DNA of 64,000 nucleotides from an uncultured Clostridia bacterium (GTDB lineage Bacteria; Bacillota; Clostridia; UBA1381): positions 1-64,000 of the forward strand of contig CALXWJ010000097.1 in NCBI GenBank assembly GCA_944392335.1, written 5' to 3'. Of this stretch, positions 14,548 to 51,018 are shown one piece after another; positions within the stretch are counted from its first letter, which is position 1, and every line of letters starts with the position of its first letter. Under the pieces are notes generated by a model. That model searched no databases. It was not told the DNA's origin and saw only the letters and a program-made list of their open reading frames with translations. The position numbers and the translations under genes are program-made.

Positions 14548-16242
14548 ATGAAAAATAATTATTCGGTCTGTTGGAAAAAACGGGGTGACAGGACAGGGCT
14601 TATCCGAAATGCACTTTTAAAGTCTATGGGATATACCGATGAAGATATTGAAAAGCCGATAATCGGAATAATCAACACATGGGCGGAAACAAATCCCGGG
14701 CATATTCATTTCAGACAGTTGTCGGAAGCGGTAAAGAGAGGCGTATGGGCGTCGGGAGGGTTTCCCCTTGAGGTAAATACCATGTCGATATGCGAGGTGT
14801 TTTTCGATATTTCAAGTCTTATTTACAGAAATCTTTTGTCAATCACAACGGAGGAGCTTATAGAGCGGCATCCTTTTGATGGAGTAGTGTTAATAGGCGG
14901 CTGTGACAAGAATGTACCGGCGCAGCTTATGGCAGCTGTTTCGGCAAATAAGCCTACGATCTATCTTCCGGGAGGGGCGATGCTTCCGGGCAGTTATAAA
15001 GGAAAGACCCTTGCCTGCGGAACGGATAGCTTTTATCTTTATAACGATTATACCTCCGGTAAGATCACATTAGAGGAAATGACAAAACATGAGGGATGTC
15101 TTTATGGAAGTGCCGGCGCATGCCCGATTATGGGGACTGCAAATACATGTCAGACTGTGGCAGAGGCTCTCGGAATAGCATTACCCAATTCGGCGTCATG
15201 TCTCGGTGTTTCGGCAGAAAAGCTGCGTATAAGTGAAGAAACGGGACGCAGAGCCGTTGAGCTTGTAAAGAACGATATAAAATGCCTTGATATTATCAAC
15301 AGAAAATCAATGGAAAATGCCATCCGCGTTCTTATGGCAACGGGCGGCTCGACCAATTTGATCATACATTTGATCGCGATTGCAAGGCGTGCAAATATAG
15401 ATCTGAAGCTTGATGATTTTGAAAGAATAAGCAAGGAAACGCCGGTTCTGGTTAATGTTAAGCCTCACGGAACGGAAAATGTCGGTATGGGCTTTCATAA
15501 TGCCGGAGGAGTTGCTTCACTGATGAAGGAAATGGAGGATATGCTTCATGGAAGCTGTCTGACAGTGACGGGAAAAACGGTTGGAGAAAATCTTTTGGAT
15601 ATCGATATGCCTTACGACACAAATATAATAAGACCGCTTGATAATCCAATAGAACAAAAGGGTGGAATAGCTGTTTTGTACGGAAATCTCGCGCCCAACG
15701 GCGCGGTCATAAAACGGAGCGCTGCAAGCCCTCACTTGTTAAATCATAGAGGAAAGGCTAAGGTTTTTGAAGATTTGACTGAATGTCAGAAATATTTGCT
15801 TGATGATAATTCTGACGTGACGCCTGATACTGTGATCGTTTTAAGAGGCTATGGTCCGAAGGGTGCTCCCGGTATGCCGGAAAACGGTAATTTTATGCCG
15901 CTGCCGCCTAAATTTAACAAAATGGGAGTAAATGACTTTGTACGCATAACCGATGCAAGAATGTCGGGCGGTTGTTTTGGGACTCAGGTGCTGCACATTG
16001 CACCCGAAAGCGCGGTTGGCGGACCTCTTGCAGCAGTACATGACGGTGATATAATTCACCTTGATGTGGATAACAATCTTATTGAACTTGAGGTTTCACA
16101 AGAGGAGATCAAAGAAAGACTAAAAAAATTCAAACCAAAACAGCATAAAGATATAAAAAGAGGTTTTGTGCGCGATTTTATAGATAATGTCACGCAGGCT
16201 GATGAGGGCTGTGATCTTACATATATGCAGTACAAAGATTGA
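14548..16242 (+). CDS. IlvD/Edd family sugar-acid dehydratase
   Basis: The 564-residue enzyme belongs to the Fe-S dependent IlvD/Edd family, which removes water from aldonates to give 2-keto-3-deoxy acids. Visible family motifs are GGCDKNVPAQ and GSAGACPIMGTANTCQ, each with an Fe-S ligand Cys, and GPKGAPGMPE near the C-terminus. The position of the first cluster Cys in pentonate dehydratases reads NPGHIHF here, with Gly, as in many clostridial and archaeal IlvD proteins. Context (two sugar-acid aldolases, a DgoK kinase) argues for aldonate dehydration, not branched-chain amino acid synthesis; galactonate, arabinonate or a related acid is possible. The ATG follows GTGGAG by 7 bases. Confidence 0.85.
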   Translation: MKNNYSVCWKKRGDRTGLIRNALLKSMGYTDEDIEKPIIGIINTWAETNPGHIHFRQLSEAVKRGVWASGGFPLEVNTMSICEVFFDISSLIYRNLLSITTEELIERHPFDGVVLIGGCDKNVPAQLMAAVSANKPTIYLPGGAMLPGSYKGKTLACGTDSFYLYNDYTSGKITLEEMTKHEGCLYGSAGACPIMGTANTCQTVAEALGIALPNSASCLGVSAEKLRISEETGRRAVELVKNDIKCLDIINRKSMENAIRVLMATGGSTNLIIHLIAIARRANIDLKLDDFERISKETPVLVNVKPHGTENVGMGFHNAGGVASLMKEMEDMLHGSCLTVTGKTVGENLLDIDMPYDTNIIRPLDNPIEQKGGIAVLYGNLAPNGAVIKRSAASPHLLNHRGKAKVFEDLTECQKYLLDDNSDVTPDTVIVLRGYGPKGAPGMPENGNFMPLPPKFNKMGVNDFVRITDARMSGGCFGTQVLHIAPESAVGGPLAAVHDGDIIHLDVDNNLIELEVSQEEIKERLKKFKPKQHKDIKRGFVRDFIDNVTQADEGCDLTYMQYKD

Positions 16243-16284
16243 TTTTGTTTAATATTACAGTAAAACAGAAAGGAAAAATCATAA

Positions 16285-17199
16285 ATGAGTAATTTAACAG
16301 AGATAAAGGGCATTTGTCCGATAATTGCAACACCTTTTACAGAAAGCGCCGAGATAGATTACGGCAGCCTTGACAGGCTGGTGAAGGAGTTGATAAAGGG
16401 CGGCTGCTATGCGGTGACGCTTTTTGGAATTGCGGGAGAATATTATAAGCTGAATGATGAAGAGCGTGAAATGATGGCGCAGATAACGGTTAAGGCGGCT
16501 GATACGGCAGGAGGAAAAACCATAATTTCGGTGACCGATCATTCAACAGAGGTCGCCGTAAAGCGCGCAAGGTATTTTGAAGAATTGGGTGCGGACTGTC
16601 TTATGCTTTTGCCGCCGTTTTTCTTAAAACCGGGTGTAAAATATTTGTACGAGCATATGAAGAGAGTTGCAAACGCCGTAGAAATCCCGATCATGATACA
16701 GTATGCTCCGGAGCAGACAGGTGTTGCAATACAGCCGGAGATATTCTGTAAGCTGCAGAAGGAATGCCCCAATATAATATATTATAAAATCGAATGTAAG
16801 CCGGCAGGACCTTATGTAACAAATTTATTGAGACTGACGGACGGTAAAATGAAAATATTTGTGGGCAATGCGGGCTTTCAGCTTATTGAGTGCATGGACA
16901 GGGGAGCAATAGGCGCAATGCCGGGTTGTTCAATGTACGACGTTTATCTCGATATATACAATAATTATGTGAACGGAAACAGAAAAAAAGCTTTGCAGCT
17001 GCACAACAGGCTGCTTCCGATGCTTAATCATATAAGGCAAAACGTAGAGCAGATAATTTTGTTTGAAAAGAGAATTTTAAAGTACAGGGGAATAATTGCA
17101 TACGATTATTGCAGAAAGCCGTCTTATGATACGGATGAATATTTTGACAGGCTTTTTGATGAATTTTACAAGGAAATGGCGGAGAATTATGGATGGTAA
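16285..17199 (+). CDS. Dihydrodipicolinate synthase-family aldolase/dehydratase
   Basis: The 304-residue TIM-barrel protein has the DHDPS-family GIAGEYYKL loop (normally GTTGE), the Tyr in IMIQYAPEQTG and the Schiff-base Lys in IIYYKIECKP. The family includes KDG aldolase and 2-keto-3-deoxy-acid dehydratases as well as lysine-pathway DapA; a separate, orthodox dapA exists at 48615, so this one serves the sugar-acid operon. The exact reaction is uncertain. AGAAAGGA precedes the ATG by 11 bases. It overlaps the SDR gene by 11 bases. Confidence 0.85.
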   Translation: MSNLTEIKGICPIIATPFTESAEIDYGSLDRLVKELIKGGCYAVTLFGIAGEYYKLNDEEREMMAQITVKAADTAGGKTIISVTDHSTEVAVKRARYFEELGADCLMLLPPFFLKPGVKYLYEHMKRVANAVEIPIMIQYAPEQTGVAIQPEIFCKLQKECPNIIYYKIECKPAGPYVTNLLRLTDGKMKIFVGNAGFQLIECMDRGAIGAMPGCSMYDVYLDIYNNYVNGNRKKALQLHNRLLPMLNHIRQNVEQIILFEKRILKYRGIIAYDYCRKPSYDTDEYFDRLFDEFYKEMAENYGW

Positions 17200-17959
17200 G
17201 GTAAAAAAGACCGCATTTGTAACAGGAGGCGGAACAGGAATAGGCAGCGGTATTGTAAAAGAGCTTGCAAAAGCAGGGTATGATGTTGCTTTTTCATATT
17301 GTACAAGCGAGCAAGGAGCAGAGAAAACCGCTGCCGAGTCAAAAAAGTACGGCGGCAGGGTTTTTGCGGTTCGTGCGGATGTGAGCAAAATCGAGGATAT
17401 TCAAAGGATGTTTGATGAAGTTGAAGCAAAATTTTCAAAGCTTGATTTATTTGTAAACAATGCCGGAATAACGGAAAAGTCGGATTTTTTGCATACTGCC
17501 CCGGAGCTTTTCGATAGAATTTGCGGTGTGGATTATAAGGGCGCGTTCTTTTGCATACAACGTGCCGGACAGATAATGGCGGATAAGGGTATAAAGGGAA
17601 GTATTGTTCTGGTTTCTTCAAATAATGCCGTAGCCCATTTTGCAGATGTTGCCGTTTACGCTTCCGCAAAGGCAGCTGCCGGAAAAATGGCGGAGCATGC
17701 AGCAATAGAGCTTGCAAAATACGGAATACGGGTCAACATTATTGCGCCGGGCTGGACAGATACCGGAGCATCAAGGCTTGATGAGAAGGAAGAAACCTAT
17801 TATAAGATCCCATTAAAGAAATGGACGACCGTTGAGGAAATAGGAAAGGCAATTGTCTTTTTGGCATCCGACGCCGCAGCGTCAATTACCGGCACAACCA
17901 TGCTGATAGATAACGGAGCTTGTCTTGTTTCGGATAAGCGCGAGCGATATGGTTATTAG
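17189..17959 (+). CDS. Short-chain dehydrogenase/reductase
   Basis: The 256-residue SDR has the cofactor motif TGGGTGIGSG, NNAG (VNNAGITEK), catalytic Ser in VLVSSNNA and the Tyr-Lys pair in YASAKAA. The start at 17189 follows GGAG by 4 bases and overlaps the upstream gene. In this operon it may oxidise a sugar, or act like KduD on a diketo-deoxy acid from pectin breakdown; the sequence alone does not decide. The upstream frame extension of 31 residues covers the end of the previous gene and is not used. Confidence 0.88.
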   Translation: MDGKVKKTAFVTGGGTGIGSGIVKELAKAGYDVAFSYCTSEQGAEKTAAESKKYGGRVFAVRADVSKIEDIQRMFDEVEAKFSKLDLFVNNAGITEKSDFLHTAPELFDRICGVDYKGAFFCIQRAGQIMADKGIKGSIVLVSSNNAVAHFADVAVYASAKAAAGKMAEHAAIELAKYGIRVNIIAPGWTDTGASRLDEKEETYYKIPLKKWTTVEEIGKAIVFLASDAAASITGTTMLIDNGACLVSDKRERYGY

Positions 17960-17972
17960 GAGGAATATTAAA

Positions 17973-18626
17973 ATGCGGGACGATATTATAAATGCTGTTT
18001 TAAAACATAAAATAATTGTTATTGTACGAGGGGTCGAACAGGATAAGCTTATCCCCCTTGCCGAGGCAATGCAAAAGGGCGGTATCAGACTGCTTGAGAT
18101 CACATTCAGCCAAGATAAAAGGGTAAGTGATGAGCAGACCGCGGCAAATATAAGGGCATTAAAACAGCATTTCGGCGGGGATATGTATATAGGAGCAGGA
18201 ACCGTGCTTACGGAAAAACAGGTTGAAATGACAAAGCAGTCCGGCGGAGAGTTTATTATTTCACCGGATACCGCGCCTGAGGTAATTAAGAGAACCAAGG
18301 CTCTTGAAATGGTGTCGATGCCCGGAGCATATACTCCGAGTGAAATAAGGCTTGCCCAAAAATCCGGTGCGGATTTTGTGAAGATCTTCCCGGCGGTAAA
18401 TCTTGGTGCGGAATATATAAAGGCGGTAGTGGCGCCGTTATCCGATATAAAATTACTGGCTGTCGGCGGAATAAACGATAAAAACATGAAGGAGTATCTT
18501 GGTGCGGGAGTATGCGGCTTTGGTATCGGCAGCAGCATCGTTGATAAAAAATTGATCGAAAATAAAAATTTTAAAGCAATAACAGAGCTTGCAAAACAAT
18601 ATACATCATTAATATTAGAGGGTTGA
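17973..18626 (+). CDS. KDPG/KDPGal-type bifunctional aldolase
   Basis: The 217-residue class I aldolase has IVIVRGVE at the start, the catalytic Glu in LLEITFS and the Schiff-base Lys in DFVKIFPA. It cleaves 2-keto-3-deoxy-6-phospho-gluconate or -galactonate to pyruvate and glyceraldehyde 3-phosphate. The start is set by TTAGGAGG 9 bases upstream of 17973. The next gene, a DgoK-type kinase, would supply its substrate, so KDPGal cleavage (DgoA role) is favoured. Confidence 0.9.
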   Translation: MRDDIINAVLKHKIIVIVRGVEQDKLIPLAEAMQKGGIRLLEITFSQDKRVSDEQTAANIRALKQHFGGDMYIGAGTVLTEKQVEMTKQSGGEFIISPDTAPEVIKRTKALEMVSMPGAYTPSEIRLAQKSGADFVKIFPAVNLGAEYIKAVVAPLSDIKLLAVGGINDKNMKEYLGAGVCGFGIGSSIVDKKLIENKNFKAITELAKQYTSLILEG

Positions 18627-18627
18627 T

Positions 18628-19563
18628 ATGAAAAGTTATATTACAATAGACGGCGGTACAACAAATACGAGAATTAATCTGGTGAGAGATGGTAAAATAG
18701 AAAAAACGATTAAAAAATCCATAGGAGCAAGGGTTGGAATAGAAAATAAAGAAATCCTCAAAAGTGAAATAAAAAAGGCGGTCAATGAAATTACAAAAGA
18801 TCAAGCAGACAGGATCGACAGGATTCTTGCCTCCGGCATGATAACCTCAGAATTCGGATTGTATGATCTTCCTCATATTTTGGCGCCGGCGGGAATAGAA
18901 CATCTGCACAACGGGATGAAGGAAACTGTTTTGCCGGAAATAACAAATATTCCTTTTGCGTTTATTCCGGGGGTAAAAATCTCAGATGGGAGTCTTGAAA
19001 ATACCGACATAATGAGAGGCGAGGAAACAGAGATCATCGGACTGACCGAAAATCTTCAAAGCGGCTGCATGTATATATTGCCCGGATCGCATTCCAAGCT
19101 TATCGAAACAGACGACCGCGGACGGATAATAAGCTTTGTCACGGCGCTTACCGGTGAAATGATCTTTACACTTTCTCAGAACACCATTTTAAAGGACGCC
19201 GTTGATCTTTCGCAAACGGAAATTGATGAGGAATATCTGATAAAGGGATATGAATACTGTGAAGAAAAAGAGATAAATTTTGCTCTGTTCAAAACAAGGA
19301 TATTAAAAAATATCTTTTTGTGCACCGATAGAGAGATATACAGTTTCTTTCTGGGAGTTGTTCTGCGCGGTGAAATAAAGGAAATCATTAAGTCGAAGGC
19401 ACAGAAAATTGTTATAGGCGGCAAAGCACAGATAAAAAATGCAACTGCAATACTTTTGCGCAGCTTATGCGGCAAAGAGACGGTTTGTGTCTGCGATGAA
19501 AGGGTGAATACAGCACCGTCGCTGGGAGCAATCAAAATATATGAATACACCGACGGCAGATAA
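18628..19563 (+). CDS. dgoK: 2-dehydro-3-deoxygalactonokinase
   Basis: The 311-residue protein belongs to the DgoK family of the ASKHA fold. It has the N-terminal phosphate motif DGGTTNTRINLV and the family segments ILASGMITSEFGLYD, MRGEETEIIG and LPGSHSKLIETD. It phosphorylates 2-keto-3-deoxygalactonate for the aldolase encoded just upstream. It starts one base after the stop of the aldolase gene, so the two are tightly coupled. Confidence 0.9.
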   Translation: MKSYITIDGGTTNTRINLVRDGKIEKTIKKSIGARVGIENKEILKSEIKKAVNEITKDQADRIDRILASGMITSEFGLYDLPHILAPAGIEHLHNGMKETVLPEITNIPFAFIPGVKISDGSLENTDIMRGEETEIIGLTENLQSGCMYILPGSHSKLIETDDRGRIISFVTALTGEMIFTLSQNTILKDAVDLSQTEIDEEYLIKGYEYCEEKEINFALFKTRILKNIFLCTDREIYSFFLGVVLRGEIKEIIKSKAQKIVIGGKAQIKNATAILLRSLCGKETVCVCDERVNTAPSLGAIKIYEYTDGR

Positions 19564-19598
19564 AAGTCTTATAATTGATGGATCGGAGGATGGGTATC

Positions 19599-21836
19599 AT
19601 GACAGAAAAGGAAACAAATTATACAGTCTTTTTAAACGGCAGGAAACAGAGAATTGAAACGGCATTGATAAAACCTGTCCCGTATAATTGTGAAAAAGTT
19701 CAGGAATTTGTTATATGTAAATATACAAAGGATTCACTTCTTGAAATAAAGAGCAAAAAAAATATCGGCAAGGTAACAATACGTCCGCTGTCGGCGAATA
19801 TAAAGTATTCGTTTGATGAGCATACAATAAAAATACAATTGCCGAGGCCTCTTAATTTTTCCGTGGAGATAAACGGTACTGCACAGGATAATATTTTGAT
19901 ATTTGCCTCAGAGGAGAAAGAATATGACTTTGACGGATTAAATGTTATTCATTTGACTGAAAACTGCAAAAAAGACAGGATTTTGATCGACAGAGATAAT
20001 ACCGCATTATTTATTGATGATGATGTGTGCGTAAACTCAAAAATAGAGGTCAATGCCTGCAGGAATATAAAAATATGCGGAAATGGAATTATTACTCAGT
20101 CAGGTGTTACAAACAATAAATATCGTATATGCGTGGATGTATTAGGGTGTGAAAACGTATCGATTGAGGATATAACTATAACGGAAAGTTTGTTTTGGTG
20201 TCTTAGAGTATTCGGATGTGACAACGTACATATCAAAAATGTAAAAATCATAGGATACAGAGGAAATAACGACGGTATTGATGTATGCGGATCAAGAAAT
20301 GTTGAAGTTGACGGCGCATTCATAAGGACATGGGATGACAGTTTTGTCGTAAAGGCTGTTGATGAGAGAGACAAAAAAAGTATTCATTATGTTGTCGAAG
20401 GTTCAAAAACAGATATGACAAAAGCATTCGAGCGTGTCGGTGATGTGTATAACATTCTTTTTAAAAACAGCACGTTATGGAATGATTTTGCAAGACCCAT
20501 AGAAATCGGAGTTTCATTAAGAGCGGATAGGGTGTATAATATACGCTATGAAAATATTGATATTATACACAGTACCACAGGTTATCCGCTTATGGGAGCG
20601 CATCACGGAGACCGTGCCGAGGTGTATGACGTTACATTTGAGGATATTCGTGTTGAGGATGCACCCGGAGCGCAGTTGTTTGATTTCAGAATAACTGATT
20701 CAGAGTGGAGTACCGATGATAAAAAGGGAAGTATGCATGATTTCTTTTTTAAGAATATAAAGCTGATAGGCAGACCGGGTATCGATATTCTGCCGGAGGC
20801 GTCCCGTCTTGAGGGATATTCCGAAGAACACGGAATAAGAAACTTTTGTTTTGAGGATATAGAGCTTCTGGGGGAAACGGCTCAAAACGCACAGCAGCTA
20901 AATTTAAATATAATGGATCACGTGCATGATATCACTTTTAAGGGCGGCCGGAACAAAAAATGTATATCGGTCGTAACAACGGCGATCAGACAAACGGATG
21001 AGCCTGTATTAAAAGAGGATGGGAATTTTGAGATCGGCATATTGATGGAGCTTGAAAACAAATCAAGCAAAAAAACCGAGGGAGAGGTATATATAAAGGC
21101 GTCGCCCAGGAATTCAGGTGAAATAAAAAGTCGGACAGTGTTTGAGCTTATGCCGGGAGAAAGAAAAGAATATACCTTTAAAGGTGTATTCCCGCCGGGA
21201 AAACACTGCCTTTGTGCGGAGTCTGAGAATATCGGAGTGAGATCCTCAAAACTTCTCATCGATCTGCCATGGTATATGACCGGGAGTATAGACTCTGCAT
21301 ATCCGCTTTATTTTACAAATTATTATAATGACACAAGACCTCCTGTTTACATGTCGGTTAAAGATGGTATTCTTACATTGAAATCAGATATCATAAAAAA
21401 CGGAAAGCTTATACTTTACACCGCCAATCCGGTACCTGTAAGAATGAACGAGGTACTTTTCACCGTTGAGGAAACGGATTTCGGGGAAGCCCCGGCTCTG
21501 GTCATGGAAAAGGACGGACCCGTGAGTGCTCCTCAGCTTAGATGCCCTGCGGAAATAACCTATGTATTTCATAATGAGCCTAAGGTAGAAAAAATAAATA
21601 AAATCGATATACCGGCAAACGCGGACGGTATTTACTCCGCCGCTTTGTCAGACATTGGTATAGATGGTGCAGGAAATGAATTTCTCGCGGAAATCCGGGT
21701 AAAGGATAAGGAAAGTGAAAAATACAGGTATGCGTATACGCTGGGACATTCTGTCTGGCCGGAGCAGTTAAGTCACATGTTTATAAAGGTGATAAAGAAT
21801 AAAGATATATCTGGTGAAAAAGCAAGAAGAAAATAA
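19599..21836 (+). CDS. GH28-like right-handed beta-helix glycoside hydrolase
   Basis: The 745-residue protein has a central parallel beta-helix (about 110-440) with short repeats of the type CENVSIEDITITES. The GH28 catalytic region is visible as NNDGIDVCGS and RTWDDSFVVKA, supplying the Asp and Asp-Asp residues. An N-terminal beta domain (1-110) and a C-terminal region of about 250 residues flank it. No signal peptide is present, so it probably acts on imported oligosaccharides in the cytoplasm. GGAGG lies 10 bases before the ATG at 19599. It closes the sugar-acid operon, suggesting release of the acid or neutral sugar that the operon catabolises. Polygalacturonase or rhamnogalacturonase activity is a family-level guess. 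Confidence 0.8.
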   Translation: MTEKETNYTVFLNGRKQRIETALIKPVPYNCEKVQEFVICKYTKDSLLEIKSKKNIGKVTIRPLSANIKYSFDEHTIKIQLPRPLNFSVEINGTAQDNILIFASEEKEYDFDGLNVIHLTENCKKDRILIDRDNTALFIDDDVCVNSKIEVNACRNIKICGNGIITQSGVTNNKYRICVDVLGCENVSIEDITITESLFWCLRVFGCDNVHIKNVKIIGYRGNNDGIDVCGSRNVEVDGAFIRTWDDSFVVKAVDERDKKSIHYVVEGSKTDMTKAFERVGDVYNILFKNSTLWNDFARPIEIGVSLRADRVYNIRYENIDIIHSTTGYPLMGAHHGDRAEVYDVTFEDIRVEDAPGAQLFDFRITDSEWSTDDKKGSMHDFFFKNIKLIGRPGIDILPEASRLEGYSEEHGIRNFCFEDIELLGETAQNAQQLNLNIMDHVHDITFKGGRNKKCISVVTTAIRQTDEPVLKEDGNFEIGILMELENKSSKKTEGEVYIKASPRNSGEIKSRTVFELMPGERKEYTFKGVFPPGKHCLCAESENIGVRSSKLLIDLPWYMTGSIDSAYPLYFTNYYNDTRPPVYMSVKDGILTLKSDIIKNGKLILYTANPVPVRMNEVLFTVEETDFGEAPALVMEKDGPVSAPQLRCPAEITYVFHNEPKVEKINKIDIPANADGIYSAALSDIGIDGAGNEFLAEIRVKDKESEKYRYAYTLGHSVWPEQLSHMFIKVIKNKDISGEKARRK

Positions 21837-22029: not shown

Positions 22030-22848
22030 TCAGTGAGTATCGGAGTTTTTAAAAAGATCAGAATACTGCCCGTAAAAAGACACAAAATTATTGTACAAAA
22101 CATTTTCTGTGACATTATCGGGTAATTTCAAATCCATTATATTTTTGAGTTCACTCTCATGATCCCACATAGGGAAATCGGTTGCAAAGAAAATGTGACT
22201 GTTATCAAAAGTATCAAATCCTTTTTTTGCTTGTTCAAGCCCCTGAAATCCCATTGTGCTGCTTGTATCAAAGTACATATTGGGAAGGTTTAATACATCT
22301 CTTGCAATGTCCCACTGGCTCCAGCCTCCGAAATGAGCTCCGATGATATTTAATTTGGGAAATTTTTTTGCGATATCTGCAATTTTTTCCGGGTGAGAAT
22401 AACCGTAGCGGTAATCGCCTGCATGTGTCAAAACAAACATATTTAATTGTATTAAGGTGTCGTAAACGGGGAACAGTTCTTTATCATTAAAATCAAATTT
22501 CTGAAAATCAGGGTGTAATTTGATCCCGTGAATACCTGATTTTTTTAATCTTTCAAGCTCGTCTCCATAGTGTTCATAGCCTTTAAACATGGTTCCGAGA
22601 CCTATAAATTCTTTATGTAAATTTACCTGTTCCATAATAAAACTATTTATGCTCTCAACCTGCTGCGGTTTTGTGGCGGTGGAAAACACCAAATATTTTA
22701 AAACCCCTATTTTTTTGCCCGAATCTATTAATACATCGGCAGAACCTTTATTACATATAGGTGTACTGTAAAAATCAGATATCGATTGAACGGCTTTGTC
22801 GGCAATTTTGTCGGGAAATATGTGAGCGTGCGTATCTATAATTTTCAT
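22030..22848 (-). CDS. Amidohydrolase-family (PF04909-like) metal-dependent hydrolase
   Basis: The 272-residue protein starts MKIIDTHAHIFPDKI with the HxH metal motif, has GIKLHPDFQKF, VLTHAGDY, NIIGAHFGGWSQWD and ATDFPMWDHE for the remaining metal and catalytic residues of the TIM-barrel amidohydrolase fold. Relatives hydrolyse or decarboxylate small aromatic or lactone substrates; the actual substrate is unknown. AAAGG precedes the ATG by 8 bases. It follows the acyl-CoA synthetase fusion gene on the same strand and may share its mRNA. Confidence 0.85.
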   Translation of the reverse strand: MKIIDTHAHIFPDKIADKAVQSISDFYSTPICNKGSADVLIDSGKKIGVLKYLVFSTATKPQQVESINSFIMEQVNLHKEFIGLGTMFKGYEHYGDELERLKKSGIHGIKLHPDFQKFDFNDKELFPVYDTLIQLNMFVLTHAGDYRYGYSHPEKIADIAKKFPKLNIIGAHFGGWSQWDIARDVLNLPNMYFDTSSTMGFQGLEQAKKGFDTFDNSHIFFATDFPMWDHESELKNIMDLKLPDNVTENVLYNNFVSFYGQYSDLFKNSDTH

Positions 22849-22969: not shown

Positions 22970-25276
22970 TTATTTATTGTTATCTTTTTCTCTTATTTCA
23001 ACACGTCTTATTTTACCGCTTATTGTCTTTGGTAATTCTTCAACAAATTCCACAATTCTCGGATATTTATAAGGAGCGGTGTGTTCTTTTACATAATTTT
23101 GGATTTCCTTTTTCAATGCATCGGAATGTTCCGTTCCTTTTGTAAGAACGATGGTAGCTTTAACTACCTGTCCGCGGATAGGGTCGGGAGCAGGAGTGAT
23201 AGCACATTCCAATACATAGGGCAATTCCATAATAACACTTTCAATTTCAAAAGGTCCGATTCTGTAACCAGAAGATTTGATGACATCATCAATTCTTCCT
23301 ACATACCAAAAATATCCGTCCTCATCTCTCCAAGCCGTGTCGCCCGTATGATATATGTTATTATCATAAACTTCTTTTGTTTTTTCTTCATCGCGATAGT
23401 AGCCAGTAAACAATCCGCATGGAACACCTTTATCAGTTCGGATAACTATTTCCCCTGTTTCTCCGACTCCGGCACTGGTGTTGTCGCCAAGGATTATATC
23501 AACGTCATATAATGGACTGGGCTTACCCATTGAACCGGGCTTAGGTACAGTACCCCTTAAGTTTGCAACGGTAAGTGTTGTCTCGGTTTGCCCGAATCCT
23601 TCCATAAGCTTTAAGCCTGTAGCTTTTTTCCATTGATCATATACCTCGGGATTTAAGGCTTCTCCCGCAACAGTGGCATATTCAATTGATGACAGATCAT
23701 ATTTTGATAAATCTTCTTTAATAAAGAATCTGTACATTGTCGGAGGCGCACAGAAGGTTGTTATATTGTATTTCTTAAACATTGGAAGAATATCATGTGC
23801 ACTAAATTTATCAAAGTCATATGTGAATATAGCAGCCTCACAAAGCCATTGACCGTATAATTTACCCCAGAGCGCTTTACCCCAGCCCGTATCGGATATG
23901 GTGAAGTGAAGACCGTCGGGATTGACATTATGCCAGTATTTTGCCGTAATAAAGTGTCCGAGAGGATATTTATAGTTGTGAGATGCGATTTTTGGATATC
24001 CAGTTGTGCCGGATGTGAAAAACATAAGCATCAGATCGTTGCCGCATGCACTGTCGGAAGTCCTTTCAAACACATCGGAGCAATTGAGCATTTCATCGTT
24101 AAAGTCATGCCAGCCGTCACGTTTTCCGCCTACAATGATTTTTGTTAAAGGTTCACCGTAATTTTTTTCACTCAAATCGACCTGATGTGCAACATCGCCA
24201 TCCGATGTACAAACAATTGCAGAAACACCTGCTGCTTTAAATCTGTAATCAAAGTCGTGTTCAACCAAGAGGTTTGTTGCCGGAATTACAATTGCACCCA
24301 GCTTATGAAGAGCCAATATAGAGAACCAGAATTGATAGTGGCGTTTCAAGACAAGCATAACTCTGTCTCCTTTTTTGATACCAAGAGACTTAAAGTAATT
24401 TGCTGTCATTGATGAATATTTGCTCATGTCGCCGAAGGTAAATCTTCTTTCTTCATGAGTGTTGGAAACATGAAGCATTGCAAGTTTATCCGGACATTTT
24501 TTCGCGAGTTCGTCTACTACGTCAAACGCGAAATTAAAACTGTCTTCATTTACAAATTTAATATCAGTCAATCTGCCGTCTGTATCCTTTGCCGTTTTAA
24601 TAAATTTTTTGTATACGGCGGTCATCGGCTGATCGCTGCGTTTTGCTTCTCTTGTATTTTCGTCCTGTTCGGAAACGGGCTCCGGCAAGGATCCGTCTTC
24701 GTTTAGAACAATCGCATATATCTCAACGTCTTCGCCGTCCAAAGCAACAAGTCCGTGAGGCGTACGGCTGTTATAATAGATGGAATCTCCAGGATTAAGT
24801 ATTTCCGTATTATTGCCCACAACAGCCTTGAGCTTGCCGCTTATAACAATATCAAATTCCTGACCTGCATGGCTTGTGCATTTTGCTGGCAGCTGTTCAT
24901 CTTCTTTTGAATAAGGGATTTTTACTCTGAAAGGCTCAGCAAGCTTATTCTTAAATAACGGAGCAAGATTTTTGTAAGTAAAACCTGCGCCTCTTGTAAT
25001 AGGGAGGCCGCCGCCGCTTCTTGTTACTTCGTAGCTTGACAGTGTAGGACTGGAACCTTGAAGAAGGTCTGTCGGGTCTACATTAAAGCATTTGGCACAT
25101 TTATAAATAAACGTAAAACTGAAATCCTTTGTGCCTGATTCGTATTCACGATAGTCTGCTACAGATACTTCAACGTTTTTCGCCATTGACTCTTCCGAAA
25201 TACCTAATATTTCACGCATATTTTTAATTCTTTGTGCAACTTCCCAAAGCTGTTGTTTCAGTGTTTCACCTTGCAT
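22970..25276 (-). CDS. XRE-cupin-AMP-forming acyl-CoA synthetase fusion
   Basis: The 768-residue protein joins three parts: an XRE-type helix-turn-helix (about 8-66), a cupin (about 105-185, with HAGQEFDIVISG and YYNSRTPHGL) and a full acyl-CoA synthetase (about 235-765). The enzyme motifs are FFTSGTTGYPK, GFGQTETT, YHTGDTAWRDEDGYFWYVGR and the C-terminal Lys in PKTISGKIRR, so it should be catalytically active. It should activate a carboxylic acid to its CoA ester through an adenylate. The HTH-cupin pair normally forms a regulator, so the fusion may sense its own acid. AGGAGG-like GGAGGTAATT lies before the ATG. A T-box leader precedes it, which is unusual for this family. Confidence 0.85.
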   Translation of the reverse strand: MQGETLKQQLWEVAQRIKNMREILGISEESMAKNVEVSVADYREYESGTKDFSFTFIYKCAKCFNVDPTDLLQGSSPTLSSYEVTRSGGGLPITRGAGFTYKNLAPLFKNKLAEPFRVKIPYSKEDEQLPAKCTSHAGQEFDIVISGKLKAVVGNNTEILNPGDSIYYNSRTPHGLVALDGEDVEIYAIVLNEDGSLPEPVSEQDENTREAKRSDQPMTAVYKKFIKTAKDTDGRLTDIKFVNEDSFNFAFDVVDELAKKCPDKLAMLHVSNTHEERRFTFGDMSKYSSMTANYFKSLGIKKGDRVMLVLKRHYQFWFSILALHKLGAIVIPATNLLVEHDFDYRFKAAGVSAIVCTSDGDVAHQVDLSEKNYGEPLTKIIVGGKRDGWHDFNDEMLNCSDVFERTSDSACGNDLMLMFFTSGTTGYPKIASHNYKYPLGHFITAKYWHNVNPDGLHFTISDTGWGKALWGKLYGQWLCEAAIFTYDFDKFSAHDILPMFKKYNITTFCAPPTMYRFFIKEDLSKYDLSSIEYATVAGEALNPEVYDQWKKATGLKLMEGFGQTETTLTVANLRGTVPKPGSMGKPSPLYDVDIILGDNTSAGVGETGEIVIRTDKGVPCGLFTGYYRDEEKTKEVYDNNIYHTGDTAWRDEDGYFWYVGRIDDVIKSSGYRIGPFEIESVIMELPYVLECAITPAPDPIRGQVVKATIVLTKGTEHSDALKKEIQNYVKEHTAPYKYPRIVEFVEELPKTISGKIRRVEIREKDNNK

Positions 25277-25334
25277 TTTAAATTACCTCCATAAATTAAA
25301 AATTTACAAGCTGTTTTCAGATCAAGCTAAATAA

Positions 25335-25614
25335 TAAAAAAACCGTCTCAAGAAAAACATCTTGAGACGGAATATAATATCCCGCGGTACCACTCAAATT
25401 GCGTATTACTACGCCACTCATAGACTCTAACAAGTCCCTTGCCTTAACGTTGCAAACTCACGGAAGGAATCTACTGACCATATGGCTTTCGGACCTTCAG
25501 CTCGGAAGTGATAGGTTTTTGAATAACCGTACCATTGGCTCGCAGCAACCGCCAACTCTCTCAAGGCGTAATTATTCAACCGTCTTCGTCACAGCTTTTA
25601 TTTATTCAATTATT
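25335..25614 (-). ncRNA. T-box riboswitch leader
   Basis: On the minus strand the leader starts near 25614 and ends in an intrinsic terminator (CCGTCTCAAG with CTTGAGACGG, 25371-25343, then seven T). Before it stands the T-box GAGTGGTACCGCGG (about 25397-25384), whose TGGT would pair with the tRNA end ACCA. Further upstream are the stem I landmarks GACGAAGACGG, TTGAGAGAGTTGG and GGTTGCTGCGAGCC and the stem II/III segment CAGTAGATTCCTTCCGTGAG. The specifier is not certain: TTC (Phe) fits the loop best, AAA (Lys) is the alternative. It controls the acyl-CoA synthetase fusion gene at 25276. Confidence 0.9.
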
Positions 25615-25620
25615 ATTGTA

Positions 25621-25649
25621 ATAATAACACATTAATTTTTAAATGTCAA
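25621..25649 (-). promoter_or_regulatory. Promoter of the T-box transcript
   Basis: On the minus strand a perfect TTGACA (25649-25644) and TATTAT (25626-25621) are 17 bases apart, just upstream of the leader. Confidence 0.75.
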
Positions 25650-50782: not shown

Positions 50783-51010
50783 TTAAAAAAACAATAGCTG
50801 CAGGGAGCTATTGCTGAAACGGCATAAAAATGCTTTTTGCAGTAGCTCTCCATCATTTGTGTAATGATGACAGCCGCAATGCTATTAACATTACGTCCAG
50901 CAACAGATCATACGGATTGACCGTCACTTCGGCATTGTTTCCTTTCACAACAAACAAATTCTCCGCAAAACATCTCGTTGTTACTTATAAAAAATGCGCC
51001 TCTACCTCTA
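50783..51010 (-). ncRNA. Lysine riboswitch (L-box) with terminator
   Basis: On the minus strand the leader opens with AGAGGTAGAGGCGC and contains AAGTAAC, ATGCCGAAGTGACGG, GTTGCTGGACG, GCGGCTGTCATCATT and ATGATGGAGAGCTACTGC in the order of the lysine aptamer; the first and last segments form P1. It is followed by the terminator stem CAATAGCTCCC..., pairing with CTATTG before a seven-T run (about 50812-50783). It controls the asd-dapA-dapB genes; lysine should stop transcription. Confidence 0.93.
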
Positions 51011-51018
51011 TGTTTAAT

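Follow-up and report, generated by a model that had tools for sequence, protein, structure and literature searches.

In the rumen, isoleucine, valine, and leucine have 2-methylbutyrate, isobutyrate, and isovalerate as their respective precursors, and phenylalanine can come from phenylacetate (PMC7356843). The same source credits the precursor conversions to Robinson and Allison (1969), Allison and Peel (1971), and Allison et al. (1966). The same carboxylation route to isoleucine has been proposed in Methanobrevibacter ruminantium (PMC2812497). Two described enzymes activate such acids to their coenzyme A (CoA) esters. MacsMa, an acyl-CoA synthetase of Methanosarcina acetivorans, has 2-methylbutyrate as its preferred substrate (PMC10455477). 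MbcS, the methylbutyryl-CoA synthetase of Staphylococcus aureus, activates both 2-methylbutyrate and isobutyrate (PMC10026030).

Here, we analyzed a stretch of 64,000 nucleotides (the window) from an uncultured Clostridia bacterium (GenBank assembly GCA_944392335.1, contig CALXWJ010000097.1). In this window, a T-box leader, which is a tRNA-sensing riboswitch, precedes a gene that encodes a fusion of an XRE-type helix-turn-helix (HTH) domain, a cupin domain, and an acyl-CoA synthetase. Very probably, this isoleucine-specific T-box controls a branched-chain acyl-CoA ligase through which scavenged 2-methylbutyrate feeds reductive carboxylation to isoleucine.

The T-box leader and its specifier codon

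The leader and the fusion gene lie on the minus strand. A search with Rfam cmscan found a match to the T-box model RF00230 at 25601-25360 (-), which covers the full model (1-219) with 103.0 bits (E = 1.3e-21; gathering cut-off, 93 bits). The sigma-70-type promoter (25621-25649) is composed of TTGACA (25649-25644), a 17-nt spacer, and TATTAT (25626-25621); it matches 11 of 12 consensus positions, and a TG precedes the TATTAT hexamer. Based on the covariance match and the leader alignment, the T-box sequence and the 5' part of the antiterminator (GAGUGGUACCGCGG) are located at 25381-25394. The core UGGUACCGCG is invariant across 39 aligned leaders of the isoleucine (Ile) type. The single terminator found is an intrinsic one with a T run (25333-25370; 11 pairs, six of them GC), in which CCGTCTCAAGA/TCTTGAGACGG and T7 occupy 25370-25343 (-). 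The segment that contains the antiterminator and terminator is exceptionally stable (z = -4.06; 0 of 200 shuffles equally stable). Stem I by itself has a stability that is not unusual compared with shuffles (z = -0.97), and its stability was dropped as evidence for lack of significance. For this reason, the support for stem I comes from the covariance model and the homologs; compensatory changes were found in 18 of the 29 predicted pairs among the 39 aligned leaders. Between the end of the terminator stem and the ATG of the fusion gene are 67 nt, and a ribosome-binding site (GGAGGT, 25285-25290) lies within this gap, which assigns the leader to the fusion gene. The leader is a genuine, transcription-terminating T-box. 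An earlier note on this DNA had described a T-box with promoter, stem I landmarks, and terminator at 25335-25649; these coordinates are essentially right and the elements are all present.

The specifier codon is AUC (isoleucine; 25512-25510, -), which the Rfam alignment places in its specifier columns. The earlier note had suggested a covariance-model alignment and a comparison of the leaders of homologous fusions, and both identify this codon. Among 103 non-redundant fusion genes from the window's genome and related genomes, 67 have an AUC leader (66 by script and L097 by inspection) and 17 have GUA, a valine (Val) codon. For the others, the leader is incomplete (three genes), upstream DNA is lacking (three), or no T-box is present (13). 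Across the AUC leaders, the bases before (T, C, G, or A) and after (A, C, G, or T) the codon vary. In the alignment of the 39 Ile-type leaders, the A-T-C columns are invariant. The GUA codon also occupies the Rfam specifier columns and does not vary among the 13 Val-type leaders that were aligned. The window's genome has six other T-boxes, for which the same reading returned AAC (asnA), ACC (thrS), UUC (pheS), UGG (a TrpB-like gene), UGG (an ABC binding protein), and CUC (an isomerase-ligase), with gene names assigned by reading the open reading frames. The expected AAC, ACC, and UUC were obtained for asnA, thrS, and pheS, which validates the reading in cases where the gene is self-evident.

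The AGUA/GAA loop-E motif that is customary in T-boxes is absent from the specifier loop, which makes the specifier frame less obvious than usual. This loop-E/S-turn motif is common but not definitional, and the Rfam cut-off was passed despite its absence; the 5' side reads ACGGU, and the GAA before the specifier is missing in most leaders. Another triplet of the loop could thus be considered as the specifier (UAU for tyrosine, UCA for serine, CUA for leucine, or UUC/AAA), which would make the ligase an enzyme for aromatic or other acids. Such an assignment is extremely unlikely given that AUC alone is constant over 66 leaders with variable neighboring bases, that AUC and GUA both fall in the Rfam columns, and that the asnA, thrS, and pheS leaders are read as expected. 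The UAU, UCA, and CUA frames were rejected because they are not constant across leaders, and UUC and AAA because they lie outside the specifier columns. The last two triplets were those considered by the earlier note (as TTC and AAA). With AUC as the specifier, its phenylalanine/aryl-acid and lysine interpretations do not apply to the window's gene. Its general idea, that the sensed amino acid indicates the metabolism in which the ligase takes part, holds for isoleucine and 2-methylbutyrate, and the link to phenylalanine (Phe) reappears at other loci, as described below.

The fusion protein and its closest relatives

The fusion gene (22970-25276, -) encodes a 768-aa protein, in which domain profiles identified HTH_19/HTH_3 (aa 15-74; 25055-25234), Cupin_2 (aa 135-189; 24710-24874), AMP-binding (aa 256-627; 23396-24511), and AMP-binding_C (aa 677-755; 23012-23248). 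Membership in the acyl-CoA synthetase superfamily is evident from the scores for PF00501 (184.4 bits; cut-off, 29.9) and PF13193 (75.7 bits; cut-off, 24.5). The earlier note was thus correct that the controlled gene, unusually for a T-box, encodes an acid:CoA ligase fusion. Based on homology, the protein is proposed to be a 2-methylbutyrate-CoA ligase.

The best curated NCBIfam profile is that of MbcS (NF047394). The score of 449.1 bits is below the equivalog cut-off of 850 bits; membership was rejected, and the fusion protein is therefore filed as an MbcS relative only. The nearest solved structure is that of MacsMa (3ETC), with 54% identity over 554 aligned residues. In MacsMa, Trp259 fills the pocket place of Acs Trp416, and the position of Acs Trp416 itself is occupied by Gly (PMC10455477). 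Both features are kept in the fusion protein as Trp470 and Gly562, a correspondence that assumes a numbering offset of 23 for the 3ETC chain. Because MacsMa and MbcS are both reported to use 2-methylbutyrate, sequence comparison indicates that this acid is most likely the substrate of the ligase.

Gene neighborhoods and the proposed route to isoleucine

In loci extracted with 10-kb flanks, the fusion ligases adjoin VorB (546 bits; cut-off, 399), VorA, VorC, and IlvE (475 bits; cut-off, 307), with VorB and IlvE both above the cut-offs of their NCBIfam profiles. VorBAC is a 2-ketoisovalerate:ferredoxin oxidoreductase (VOR) and IlvE is a branched-chain aminotransferase (BCAT). The gene order in L111 is Ile T-box and ligase, Val T-box and ligase, a P-loop NTPase, VorB-VorA-VorC, IlvE, and a leucine (Leu) T-box (CUC) followed by a LeuA-like gene and an isomerase-ligase. 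A CUC T-box also precedes a LeuA-like gene in L105 and L069, with the isomerase-ligase present where the contig is long enough. Moreover, a UUC (Phe) T-box precedes a PaaK-like phenylacetate-CoA ligase in three loci (L069, L084, and L097); the two of these ligases that were scored have 535 and 530 bits and do not reach the cut-off of 646. The T-box at these loci also precedes a gene for a small ACT protein (L069:3199-4900, L084:4332-5965, and L097:12627-14280). Phenylalanine may possibly be made from phenylacetate there.

The GUA fusion genes form a single clade (SH-aLRT 100), one specifier change away from the AUC genes, and are located in tandem behind AUC genes in many loci. The simplest reading of these patterns is one duplication with an Ile-to-Val specifier switch, presumably accompanied by a switch of substrate. 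Eight residue columns separate the Ile-type from the Val-type ligases; in one of them, G466, which is next to the pocket residues Trp465/Lys467, is replaced by A. These differences would fit a smaller pocket that takes isobutyrate; they prove little and carry little weight because the Val type arose once, in one event. Taken together, the sequences suggest up to four ligase types, each under a T-box that matches the amino acid derivable from its acid through reductive carboxylation and then transamination.

The genome that contains the window (3.64 Mb; 99.5% complete) has no IlvC and no true IlvD; its sole IlvD-family protein (14548-16242 of the window) is below the IlvD cut-off and lies inside a sugar-acid cluster. 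By this test the de novo route to branched-chain amino acids (BCAAs) is absent, with acetohydroxyacid synthase (AHAS) still present. Both the VOR-type oxidoreductase and the BCAT required for reductive carboxylation are encoded, namely VorB (556 bits, on contig C65 with VorA, VorC, and a P-loop gene) and IlvE (419 bits). In addition, the genome has an 837-aa isomerase-ligase with a Leu T-box (CUC), which combines AP_endonuc_2 (a xylose-isomerase-like TIM barrel) with AMP-binding. This gene (G000:C21:150625-153864, locus L003; also L121:3468-6365) is followed by an amino acid ABC transporter and is likely the isovalerate/leucine counterpart of the fusion.

The T-box with its specifier, the order of the genes, the loss of IlvC and IlvD, and the homology were all obtained computationally; from them we infer the regulation in vivo, the substrates of the ligases, and the direction of the reactions. 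When isoleucine is short, uncharged tRNA-Ile would read AUC in stem I, as in established T-box biology, and its free acceptor end (discriminator A) would pair with the UGGU of the T-box sequence in the antiterminator. The antiterminator would then be stabilized, the terminator would fail to form, and the fusion gene would be transcribed. The ligase would convert scavenged 2-methylbutyrate to 2-methylbutyryl-CoA, VorBAC would reductively carboxylate this ester to 3-methyl-2-oxopentanoate, and the BCAT would turn the latter into isoleucine; the neighborhood of these genes is what suggests such a flow. In relatives, a GUA T-box would control a paralogous ligase for the conversion of isobutyrate to valine, and a CUC T-box would control the isomerase-ligase fusion for that of isovalerate to leucine.

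VOR and BCAT also serve Stickland-type degradation. The same genes could accordingly form a catabolic operon, in which the aminotransferase and VOR ferment BCAAs to acyl-CoA and the ligase-like enzyme stands at the acid-releasing end. This explanation is very unlikely, given that a T-box induces upon amino acid starvation, which is the wrong sign for degradation, and that AMP-forming ligases favor formation of the CoA ester. Furthermore, carriers often lack the biosynthetic pathway, and degradation would leave them with no source of these amino acids. Alternatively, the ligase may provide the branched-chain acyl-CoA from which membrane fatty acids are primed, as MbcS does in S. aureus, with the T-box doing no more than coordinating this supply with BCAA status. 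Such a role is not mutually exclusive with isoleucine supply, and the homology to MbcS gives it some appeal. As the explanation of the locus it is nevertheless unlikely: the neighbors are VorBAC and IlvE rather than genes of fatty acid synthesis, each paralog has a T-box matched to the amino acid expected from its acid, and genes for de novo BCAA synthesis are absent.

Several other features of these loci were observed. An Amidohydro_2 protein (22030-22848, -; identified by domain profile) is encoded downstream of the window's fusion gene on the same strand and is probably co-transcribed; relatives of it adjoin the fusion in L054, L080, L101, and L109. A protein of about 480 aa with ACT and metallo-beta-lactamase-like parts is present in L063, L069, L073, L074, L096, L100, L103, and L115; its gene is often directly downstream of an Ile-type fusion and has its own AUC T-box in L096 (15647, minus strand). 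Split versions, with a separate XRE-cupin gene directly 5' of the ligase gene and no T-box, occur at L132:4352-6624 and L037:1498-3738 and in L021, L023, and L025. The pair in L132 belongs to a genome that lacks IlvC (G055) and lies directly beside VorBAC and IlvE. A second, split pair (47% identical, without a T-box) is also found on contig C50 of the window's genome. These pairs suggest how the fusion arose. Elsewhere in the window, the sugar-acid/pectin-like cluster (14548-21836) includes an IlvD/Edd-family dehydratase, aldolase-like proteins, a kinase-like protein, and a GH28 protein. An ordinary lysine riboswitch (50835-51012, -; 105.7 bits) precedes genes that read as asd, dapA, and dapB (50656-47767).

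Distribution and comparison with known systems

Within the order of the window's genome, IlvC is above its cut-off in 3/31 genomes with an intact fusion compared with 47/63 without one, one ambiguous genome being left out (Fisher p = 1.6e-9, uncorrected for shared ancestry and with many genomes incomplete). Fusion carriers include metagenome-assembled genomes of Ruminococcus flavefaciens (L113 and L114), a species in which strains require branched acids as growth factors. A homolog is also present in Neglectibacter timonensis (L043), which is available as an isolate and lacks IlvC. A strict one-for-one replacement of IlvC is largely true in this order and fails in a wider sample. VorB was also rejected as an exclusive marker because VorB-type genes are common in genomes without the fusion.

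Several observations weigh against the proposed isoleucine route. In the wider sample, 17 of 48 fusion carriers (18 with one split gene) pass the IlvC cut-off, so that the system is not confined to IlvC-less organisms; IlvC and the fusion also occur together in G006, G118, and G134. The window's genome keeps AHAS (IlvB and IlvN; G000:C21:27263-29460, L136:7117-9460) without IlvC, its VorBAC is on a contig other than that of the fusion with no T-box seen there, and no ligase with a Val T-box was found in it. The shortfall against the MbcS profile also belongs here. Finally, no T-box is recognizable at 13 fusion genes, 11 of them from one Ruminococcus clade (including those in L058, L067, L076, L077, L089, L091, L098, L099, L104, and L106).

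More broadly, Ile, Val, Leu, and Phe T-boxes in gut and rumen Clostridia might each control the CoA ligase of the precursor acid, replacing or backing up de novo synthesis, with the XRE-cupin half adding protein-level control and making the ligase a bifunctional enzyme-regulator; we put this forward tentatively, as somewhat short of an even chance. The use of branched-chain volatile fatty acids to make amino acids has been reported for many anaerobes of the rumen and gut, and in the literature searched, dedicated activating genes and their control have not been assigned. Since the RNA specifier names the amino acid, it would predict the acid of the ligase (2-methylbutyrate, isobutyrate, isovalerate, or phenylacetate). 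T-box specifiers can therefore suggest substrates in a superfamily that is hard to annotate. The genes may also provide markers for isoacid dependence, which bears on isoacid feeding of ruminants and on cross-feeding in the gut.

The RNA class of the leader is already known. The leader shares with RF00230 the k-turn and AG-bulge region, stem III, UGGUACCGCG, and the antiterminator/terminator, and differs in that the 5' AGUA and 3' GAA partner motif, usual for the specifier loop, is missing from the Ile and Val variants. It also differs in its target, which is an acid:CoA ligase rather than an aminoacyl-tRNA synthetase, a textbook biosynthesis gene, or a transporter. No T-box on an acid:CoA ligase, no Ile/Val/Leu/Phe set, and no XRE-cupin-ligase fusion came up in the literature searched, which excludes the majority of subscription papers and with them the main T-box surveys. 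The target class, the matched set of T-boxes, and the fusion thus appear to be new. Compared with MacsMa, the ligase half is 54% identical and retains the equivalents of the pocket Trp259 and Gly; the 3ETC alignment covers this half only, and the HTH-cupin part has no counterpart. MbcS differs in feeding fatty acid synthesis, and the accessible part of its description mentions neither a T-box nor an HTH-cupin fusion (PMC10026030). The closest physiological precedent is the rumen work on carboxylation of branched-chain volatile fatty acids (Allison, Robinson, and Peel, 1966-71), which shares its acids and amino acids with the present proposal; both VorBAC and IlvE are present here. That work described the conversions, whereas the ligase genes, their duplication, and their amino-acid-specific control by RNA are proposed here.
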